Shown here piece after piece: positions 56,019-59,000 of a stretch of DNA of 64,000 nt (the stretch's first letter is position 1; each line of letters opens with the position of its first letter). Origin of the DNA: Bacteroidota bacterium (GTDB taxonomy: Bacteria > Bacteroidota > Bacteroidia > Bacteroidales > Paludibacteraceae); contig JAKIYP010000001.1 in NCBI GenBank assembly GCA_022708505.1, positions 1-64,000 on the forward strand. Reading direction: 5' to 3'. A program made the position numbers and the translations under genes. Below the pieces are notes generated by a model. That model was not told the origin of the DNA, ran no database searches, and was given only the letters and a program-made list of their open reading frames with translations.

Positions 56019-59000
56019 ATGGAGTACAATTTCAGCGAGATAGAAGCAAAGTGGCAGGCATACTGGAAAAATAACCAGACTTACAAAACAGATGTTGATT
56101 TACAAAAACCCAAATATTATGTATTAGACATGTTCCCCTATCCTTCCGGAGCCGGTTTACACGTGGGACATCCACTGGGATATATCGCATCTGATATCTA
56201 CAGCCGCTACAAAAGACTTCAGGGTTATAATGTTTTACATCCGATGGGATATGATGCTTATGGATTACCTGCTGAACAATACGCCATCCAAACCGGTCAA
56301 CACCCTGCTGTAACTACAGCAAAAAATATCGCCCGTTACAGAGAGCAATTGGATAAAATCGGCTTTTGCTACGACTGGGATCGCGAAATCCGCACTTGTG
56401 AACCGGATTATTATCACTGGACTCAGTGGGCTTTTATTCAAATGTTCAATCATTATTTCGATACAAAGTTGCAAAAAGCGATGCCGGTTGAGCTGTTGGT
56501 TAAGCATTTTGAAAAAAGTGGCACACAGGATATTAATGCGCATGGGACCGAAGAACTTTGTTTTACGGCATCTGAGTGGAATTCTAAATCAGAGAAAGAA
56601 CAACAGGAAATACTGCTCAACTACCGCATCGCTTACCTGGCCGACCTGAAAGTAAACTGGTGCCCGGCTCTCGGAACCGTACTCGCGAATGATGAGGTGA
56701 GCGAAGGGGTATCTATTCGCGGAGGACATCCGGTGGAACAAAAAGTTATGCGTCAGTGGAGTTTGCGGGTTTCGGCCTACGCTCAAAGACTGCTGGACGG
56801 ATTATCGAAAATCGACTGGACCGACTCGCTGAAAGAAACACAGAAGAACTGGATTGGTCGCAGCGAGGGTGCTGAGATACACCTCCCCCTGGCCCCCTCC
56901 AAAAGAGGGGGAATTGAGGGAAAACCCGTTCATTCTCAAATAATAAATTTCCAAGAAAAAGATATCCCTTTATATTATACTGCCGATAAACTTGATTGGA
57001 GCTTACTTATTGATCATGCCAAAGCGATGCGTAGCGAGCCTACTGAGTCTGAAAGCATTCTATGGGAAATGTTACGAGCCAATAAAACCGGATTTAAATT
57101 CCGCCGGCAACATCCTGTCGATAAATTTATACCCGATTTTGTTTGCATTGAAAAGAAATTGATTGTTGAAGTTGATGGCGATTATCATTTTACCGAAGAA
57201 CAGATTGAACTTGATAAAGCGAGAACACACATACTGGAATTATCCGGATATAAAATGCTTCGTTTCACTAATGATGAAGTAAAATCGACACCGCATTTCG
57301 TAATTGAGAAAATCAAAAGTGAGCTGACAAAAGAGAACTCAAATGATTCGGAAGGCCAGAATCATTCTGCAACTTCCCCCTCCCTCGGAGGGGGCCAGGG
57401 GGAGGTGATTGTCTTTACTACCCGTGCGGATACCATATACGGTGTTACATTCATAGTGCTCGCTCCTGAAAGCGAGTTGGTTGAAACATGCACCACTCCT
57501 GAACAAGCAGCAGAAGTACAAGCCTATATCGATACAACAAAGAAGCGAACCGAACGGGAAAGAATCGCCGACCGTCGCGTTACCGGGGTTTTTTCAGGCT
57601 CTTACGCTATCAATCCGGTCAGTGGAACAGAAATTCCGATCTGGATTTCGGATTATGTGCTGGCCGGATATGGAACCGGTGCTATCATGGCGGTACCTGC
57701 ACACGACAGTCGCGACTATGCTTTTGCCAAACACTTCAACCTGCCGATTATCCCATTAATTGAAGGTTGCGATGTGTCTGAAGAAAGTTTTGATGCAAAA
57801 GAAGGCATCATGATGAATTCAGGTTTTCTGAACGGCTTAACGGTTAAAGAAGCCATTGAAAAAGCAAAAACTTATGTAGAAGAAAAAGGAATCGGCAGAA
57901 TCAAGGTAAATTTCCGCCTACGTGATGCCATTTTCAGTCGCCAGCGTTACTGGGGTGAGCCCTTCCCTGTTTACTACAAAGACGATATGCCCTACATGCT
58001 CGATGAGAGCAAATTACCATTGATACTTCCTGAGGTGGATAAATTCCTGCCGACTGAAAAAGGGGAACCACCATTAGGCAGGGCAAAAAACTGGCATACA
58101 GCAGATGGTTTTCCATTGGAATTATGTACCATGCCCGGATTTGCCGGTTCGTCTGCATACTACCTGCGCTACATGGATCCCAAAAACGACAAGGCATTGG
58201 TTAGCAAGGAAGCGAACGAATACTGGCGCAATGTCGATTTATATATCGGTGGGACGGAACATGCAACCGGTCACCTTGTTTACAGCCGTTTCTGGAATAA
58301 ATTCCTGTTTGATCTTGGATTGGTTTGTGAGGATGAACCGTTTAAGAAACTGATTAATCAGGGAATGATTCAGGGACGGAGTAATTTTGTGTACAGGGTG
58401 AAGCACCCCCTTCCAACCTCCCCCGAAGGGGGAGGAGATACGCACTCCTCAAGTACGCAAAGCCCTGAAAGTGCGCTCACTCCTCCCCCTTCGGGGGAGG
58501 TCGGGAGGGGGTCGGGGTGCTTTGTTTCTCTCGGCTTAAAAGACCAATACGACACTACTCCAATCCACGTCGATGTTAATATCGTTTCAAATGATATACT
58601 GGATATTGAAAAGTTCCGTTCCTGGCGTCCGGAATTTGCAGATGCTGAATTCATCCTTGAAGATGGAAAATACATTTGCGGATGGGCAGTTGAAAAGATG
58701 TCTAAGTCCATGTTTAACGTGGTGAATCCGGATGATATCGTGGAAAGATACGGAGCCGATACCCTGCGCTTGTATGAGATGTTTCTGGGTCCGCTCGAAC
58801 AATCGAAACCATGGGATACCAACGGCATTGATGGAGTGCACCGCTTCCTGAAACGCCTCTGGGCGCTGTTCTATAAAGAGGGTGAATCGTTACTCAACGA
58901 GGATCAACCTTCAGCAGAAGAACTCAAAATTTTGCACAAGACAATAAAAAAGATTACTTTCGACATCGAGAACTTTTCATTCAACACATCTGTTTCTGCT

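Follow-up and report, generated by a model that had tools for sequence, protein, structure and literature searches.

An in-frame DUF559 nuclease element in the leucyl-tRNA synthetase gene of a Bacteroidota bacterium: a candidate homing-type element that would rely on coding repeats instead of splicing

In fungal mitochondria, LAGLIDADG genes are fused in frame to rps3, i.e. a homing-endonuclease gene resides in a host gene without an intron of its own, while the repetitive extragenic palindromic (REP) and REPIN sequences are associated with a transposase, RAYT. In inteins with homing endonucleases, the nuclease is read in frame as part of a conserved host protein, and both empty and filled alleles of the host gene occur (excerpted text of PMC3943268); the Rickettsia palindromic elements (RPE) are palindromes that lie in frame in metabolic genes and are predicted to be compatible with the protein (excerpted text of PMC10969869). 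Here, we have analysed a stretch of 64,000 nucleotides, hereafter the window, from a Bacteroidota bacterium of the Paludibacteraceae (assembly GCA_022708505.1, contig JAKIYP010000001.1, positions 1 to 64,000), where the leucyl-tRNA synthetase (LeuRS) gene leuS contains, in frame, an element that encodes a DUF559 nuclease domain.

We interpret this block as a predicted endonuclease element of the Vsr/EDxHD type (DUF559) that is likely mobile through homing and is carried without splicing, a reading to which we assign a probability of roughly 0.6; in other words, a homing-type element in which coding repeats take the place of splicing. With odds that we put a little above even, it would represent a phylum-wide, intein-like but splicing-free class, whose repeat ends serve as β-hairpin linkers, and which homes into loops of essential enzymes (LeuRS, IleRS, ValRS, PurL, MetH, UvrA and others), stays there as a permanent domain and, upon its loss, leaves in-frame repeat scars. 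No published description of in-frame DUF559 inserts was found in the literature searched, which mostly excludes subscription journals.

The nuclease element and its place in LeuRS

The initial annotation described leuS as one open frame with a block of exactly 176 codons, perfect terminal inverted repeats and an intact DUF559 motif, and each of these points has been reproduced. The features of the gene are as follows:

56019..59375, + strand: leuS, leucyl-tRNA synthetase, a single uninterrupted frame of 1118 codons with two in-frame inserts
56880..57407, + strand: DUF559 nuclease element of 528 bp, or 176 in-frame codons, replacing the tip of the hairpin leading into the editing domain
56880..56913, + strand: left terminal repeat, its outer 21 bp a perfect inverted repeat of the right end; reads HLPLAPSKRGG (outer part HLPLAPS)
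56893..56911, no strand: hairpin CCCCCTCCAAAAGAGGGGG, inside the left end of the block, from the hairpin scan
57012..57326, + strand: DUF559 (PF04480) nuclease domain by profile match, with a Vsr/EDxHD homing-endonuclease fold in the model
57135..57188, + strand: catalytic-type motif D-x10-E-x-D-G-x2-H (DFVCIEKKLIVEVDGDYH), intact in the window copy
57374..57407, - strand: right terminal repeat, which on the + strand reads SPSLGGGQGEV (outer part GGGQGEV)
57376..57394, no strand: hairpin CCCCCTCCCTCGGAGGGGG, inside the right end of the block, from the hairpin scan
57417..57443, + strand: conserved threonine-rich editing motif TTRADTIYG, immediately downstream of the insertion site
58404..58519, + strand: second in-frame insert of leuS, palindromic and without a nuclease; two inverted hairpin units, like a REPIN or a miniature inverted-repeat transposable element (MITE)

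Translation of leuS gives 1118 residues without an internal stop; the block corresponds to codons 288-463, its two edges fall on codon boundaries, and it is itself free of in-frame stops. The outer 21 bp of its ends are a perfect inverted repeat (0.00 matches expected by chance, from 100 shuffles of the window), the extended arms measure 34 nt each and are 91% complementary, and neither arm has a stop in any of the six frames. The translation of the host enzyme contains the HVGH, TTR and KMSKS motifs, in line with the earlier statement that the editing and KMSKS motifs are preserved. The PF04480 match, at LeuRS residues 332-436, has an E-value of 2.1e-30 and a score of 105.2 bits, against a curated cut-off of 20.6, and the Pfam scan of the whole protein has returned the synthetase domains, DUF559 and MTES_1575, which overlaps DUF559, and nothing else: no transposase match lies in the block and, besides the linkers, no added DNA-binding module was found. 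No target-site duplication is evident by eye at the junctions; since host codons are replaced by the element, the exact target site is hard to define.

The fusion has also been modelled, as the initial annotation suggested: the predicted structure consists of a folded nuclease domain that is attached through two disordered linkers to the β-hairpin tip of the editing domain, and the predicted fold resembles those of Vsr and of the homing endonuclease I-Bth0305I, i.e. the EDxHD/Vsr fold. Residues E58, E97, D99, H103 and D112 (numbering of the block), a possible counterpart of the acidic/His active-site set of EDxHD/Vsr endonucleases, are invariant in 11 aligned rows. The earlier proposal that the repeats encode tolerated linkers fits with the stop-free arms and with the predicted disorder, and we propose that the end repeats would have a double role, as the DNA ends of the element and as stop-free coding linkers that can extend a host β-hairpin, which would make essential genes tolerable as a home.

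Two known kinds of self-splicing sequence have been rejected: an intein, because the Pfam scan has found no Hint domain and no Cys, Ser or Thr follows the block (His288...Val463, then Ile464), and a group I or group II intron, because three tRNAs alone reach the Rfam gathering scores in the window. It is very unlikely that the block is instead removed or skipped after transcription, i.e. as an unrecognised intron, through ribosome bypassing over the paired ends or by proteolytic trimming: the end repeats are able to pair across the entire block and both linkers, being predicted to be disordered, would be accessible to proteases, but the nuclease is conserved at the protein level even though the window copy has no ATG, GTG or TTG among its codons 1-49, and the intron and intein searches speak against this explanation too, though some proteolytic trimming may occur. 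The missing early start codon leads us to infer that the block is translated as part of a single fusion protein.

Filled, empty and scarred sites among relatives

We have searched for leuS in 60 genomes, including the source genome, and for 53 of the remaining 59 have aligned the leuS stretch together with those of the window and of RC263, a Paludibacter sp. record (locus L035; also G069); the site is readable in 52 of these 55 rows, the window included (unreadable: G030, G031 and G035). DUF559 is present at the site in eight readable genes (G000, RC263, G017, G022, G027, G034, G037 and G054) and absent from the remaining 44, most of which show a simple hairpin, e.g. AEMKFKIKNQDLDFEVFTTR in G004. 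The empty site that the initial annotation had anticipated in relatives is common, and its counter-hypothesis, an ancient LeuRS domain without repeats that is shared by all relatives, fails. Three of the 44 genes without DUF559 (G011, G013 and G025) bear scars: they retain one right-end repeat, in frame, and are 9 nt longer than the empty alleles at the DNA level. In a LeuRS tree of 49 rows, from which the insert columns were removed, the presence of the insert needs 7 changes, at least 5 of which are required by well-supported branches.

The leuS gene of G019 (L064) resembles an empty left half that is fused to a repeat right half at GGTCAGG; the same 7-mer lies at the hairpin tip of the empty leuS of G015 (L060) and recurs in right arms of leuS elements, e.g. 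in G017. It may be a microhomology used in targeting or in resolution, or it may be due to chance.

The source assembly is a fragmented metagenome-assembled genome (149 contigs, 2.4 Mb, 75% complete), which makes a misassembly, named beforehand as a possible refutation, worth considering; it has in practice been excluded. The LeuRS of RC263/G069 is 97.7% identical to that of the window and has the same insert; the single-contig genomes G370 and G444, from another order, have inserts at the identical site; and in two protein searches, DUF559 occupies the site in 125 of 187 proteins among the matches listed. The filled leuS is the sole leuS that was found in nine carrier genomes, two of which are single-contig. 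Among 85 long proteins retrieved with the domain as the query, 60 have a recognisable LeuRS site, with the domain at this site in 55 and in another LeuRS loop in five.

This other loop precedes the TMPG motif (P0041, P0054, P0056, P0060 and P0079), and in several members of the genus it holds repeat-only inserts. The left linker of RC263 exceeds that of the window by 17 residues and includes a second repeat-like stretch.

The element is not a curiosity of a single genome, a possibility that we have rejected on account of inserts at the same site and in other hosts across the genus, the order and the phylum. In the genus, DUF559 occurs in 37 of 48 genomes; of 86 hits that score 80 bits or more, 39 are located inside open frames of at least 500 aa. 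For this genus, the statement that DUF559 genes are usually free-standing is half true, as nearly half of these hits are embedded. The hosts have been named through profiles for representatives and through a motif or host-protein search for the remainder: metH (10), purL (8), ileS (7, at two sites), leuS (6), valS (3), type IIG restriction enzymes (2), a type III methyltransferase (1), uvrA (1) and a DUF5107-TPR protein (1). Because the embedded copies were chosen as long open frames, their in-frame state is not counted as evidence. Judged by sequence motif, the sites in leuS, valS and ileS (site A) occupy apparently equivalent positions, directly ahead of the threonine-rich editing motif; we take the editing domains of LeuRS, ValRS and IleRS to be homologous. 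In one genome (G023, locus L129), both ileS sites are filled, so that a single ileS frame of 1442 codons contains two DUF559 elements.

Sites that are filled in some genomes and empty in others, the pattern that is looked for in homing, occur not only in leuS but also in purL, ileS and metH. The purL gene is free of the insertion in 22 of 30 loci among those listed, with 38-39 residues between the anchors versus 177-181 when filled; at ileS site B, two scars retain the right-end peptide, and two possible metH scars (G022 and G024) have been left out of the scar count.

Beyond the genus, at least 124 of 295 genomes in the order sample and at least 222 of 395 in the phylum sample have DUF559. 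From each sample we have fetched 20 embedded cases (L198-L217 and L338-L357): the leuS site known from the window is again filled in 7 of the 20 order cases and in 4 of the 20 phylum cases, the latter including G370 and G444, a second metH site is filled in 6 of the 20 phylum cases, and further gene types also carry the domain, which by motif rather than by profile we presume to be HsdR-like, RecG-like and DegT-like. Among named isolates, Flavobacterium yafengii has an insert in a UvrD-type helicase, and helicases 80-93% identical to it occur in Flavobacterium sp. AED, F. gawalongense, F. gillisiae and two more Flavobacterium records. Some carrier proteins are annotated merely as 'DUF559 domain-containing protein'.

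Descent, selection and mode of movement

Our tree of DUF559 comprises 106 domains from fetched loci only (68 embedded and 38 free-standing), with identical rows and rows of fewer than 95 residues removed and with a midpoint root. One branch (support 100/96) separates 62 embedded and 5 free-standing rows from 6 embedded and 33 free-standing rows. The domains of purL, of valS and of the helicase form one group each, while the leuS rows do not, and well-supported branches force at least 2 changes at the leuS site; that the nuclease arrived there independently more than once is a suggestion only. At purL, the trees of host and insert are in supported conflict: L148, L156 and L160 group together for PurL (99/96), against L120, L148 and L156 for its DUF559 domain (97/95).

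The median ratio of nonsynonymous to synonymous divergence (dN/dS) ranges from 0.15 to 0.29 across the six site families that offer 6 usable pairs or more, the single usable pair of ileS site A giving 0.08; by this measure, the embedded nucleases are under purifying selection, and 63 of the 68 embedded copies retain the E-x-D-G-x2-H motif. Such constraint would also be seen if the nuclease were a domesticated fusion that serves the cell in defence, in repair or in regulation tied to translation, and that is inherited vertically and frequently lost. We find this improbable, even though the tests of leuS origin described below are compatible with it: presence is very patchy among close relatives, the sites bear repeat scars, the hosts are functionally unrelated, the conflict at purL is supported, the GC content at third codon positions (GC3) of the nuclease is below that of the host in 13 of 13 leuS and purL cases, and a PADLOC scan of the block gave just a weak 'homing endonuclease' match (E 9.4e-4).

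Another explanation, which we regard as unlikely, though less so than domestication, concerns what the nuclease cuts: in a REPIN-like transposon, it would act on the GC-rich hairpin ends and not on the empty target, and would widely move the element as well as partners lacking a nuclease, e.g. the second insert (58404-58519), with the in-frame copies in tolerant loops being the survivors. Both leuS inserts have the layout of REP/REPIN sequences, i.e. two hairpin units in inverted orientation, and the hairpin scan places C/G-rich hairpins at four places in the window, all of them inside these two inserts; in addition, free-standing DUF559 genes also have GC-rich end repeats (above shuffles in 22 of 38), the repeat-only inserts before TMPG lie in a loop that elsewhere holds DUF559, and the host genes are many and different. 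On the other hand, distant relatives are filled at the same few sites of the same genes, which resembles homing more than scattered transposition; the leuS site has no evident target duplication, and the high copy number expected of REPIN/REP is not seen in the source genome, 75% complete as it is: the exact hairpin CCTCCCCC-(1-8)-GGGGGAGG occurs solely at both arms of the second leuS insert, and the 19-mer core of the first insert's end has no further copy.

Short, dissimilar peptides of the repeat type are found at the position of the second insert in G003, G006, G010 and G028, and in L047 (G002) and L061 (G016) a longer DUF559-free insert, alike in both, follows QGRSNFVYR at this place of LeuRS. 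Elsewhere in the window (8164-8696), another repeat-bounded gene, a small open reading frame (8206-8646, - strand), lies between inverted repeats with GGTGCTTCGCAC; we presume that it encodes a four-helix-bundle protein of the 23S rRNA intervening-sequence kind, and its neighbours look to us like V-type ATPase genes.

Homing without splicing is the simplest account of these observations, namely of alleles that are empty, filled or scarred at constant positions, an intact-looking nuclease under selection, essential single-copy hosts and no sign of splicing machinery. The nuclease would cut the insertion-free copy of the host gene, and repair by recombination would copy the element into the cut allele; the insert would then be translated in a single fusion protein, as an extra domain of the host enzyme. 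Loss of the element, with one repeat left as a scar, could result from recombination inside the GC-rich repeats, and the element may occasionally jump to new genes. The initial reading of the block as a mobile element gains support from the empty sites and the scars, its mobility being our deduction from them.

Several results weigh against homing without splicing. Six embedded rows fall outside the main group of the DUF559 tree, and approximately unbiased (AU) tests retain both a single origin of all 14 leuS inserts in the tree (p 0.065) and one group of the genus leuS rows with L079 (p 0.22), so that vertical descent with many losses is conceivable. The purL inserts have lower synonymous divergence in 26 of 28 pairs, a result that is confounded by their lower GC3, and at ileS site A this is so in 0 of 3 pairs; since GC3 differs, the lower synonymous divergence of inserts is not taken to prove recent transfer. 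The flanking DNA, whose conservation would be expected of a homing target, gives a mixed indication: at leuS and at both ileS sites conservation is high (percentile at least 0.90) on one side or more, and not high at purL (0.14, 0.66) or metH (0.45, 0.02). The inverted repeats beat all 30 composition-only shuffles in 50 of the 68 embedded and 22 of the 38 free-standing copies, hence not in all of them. An ATG lies near the domain start in 23 of 68 embedded copies (34 of 38 free-standing ones), and an ATG, GTG or TTG in 54 of 68, so that internal initiation is possible in some. Finally, the further copies of the end that the initial annotation proposed to look for did not appear: the 19-bp core of the 21-bp end has no other match with up to 2 mismatches in the 75%-complete source genome.

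Comparison with known systems

If our reading is true, it would explain the extra DUF559 domain in a number of housekeeping enzymes, and the filled sites provide a natural catalogue of essential-enzyme loops that seemingly accept a domain of ~120 residues.

The leuS element shares with the free-standing DUF559 genes of the phylum the PF04480 domain and, with part of them, GC-rich palindromic ends; these genes differ from the embedded copies in usually having an ATG near the domain start and in falling mostly (33 of 38) elsewhere in the tree. The model likens its catalytic domain to that of the EDxHD/Vsr homing endonuclease I-Bth0305I; unlike I-Bth0305I, the insert has no known intron in the window and no extra DNA-binding module was found in it, and its homing activity is putative. 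In the rps3-LAGLIDADG case, the fusion is terminal, with repair of the host C-terminus, and concerns one gene, whereas the leuS type occupies an internal loop, has inverted repeats, belongs to a different family and is found in many genes.

As in REP/REPIN sequences with RAYT and in MITEs, inverted GC-rich hairpin units bound the leuS element, which differs from REPIN/RAYT in having a nuclease in place of a transposase, a coding position and a low copy number. By description, it resembles RPE in being a coding palindromic element in frame; unlike RPE, which are ~150 bp long and encode a short conserved peptide, it encodes a complete nuclease domain, with ends that serve as linkers, so that the second leuS insert is the closer analogue of RPE and MITEs.

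Like inteins, the leuS insert is a nuclease in frame in a conserved host, with empty and filled alleles; unlike inteins, it has neither a Hint domain nor a junction Cys, Ser or Thr, and it would stay as a permanent domain. It is through their association with self-splicing sequences that homing endonucleases are said to have become free to enter host genes of high conservation (excerpted text of PMC3943268); the leuS element seems to enter such genes by structure alone, through end repeats that are stop-free in six frames and can be read as linkers.
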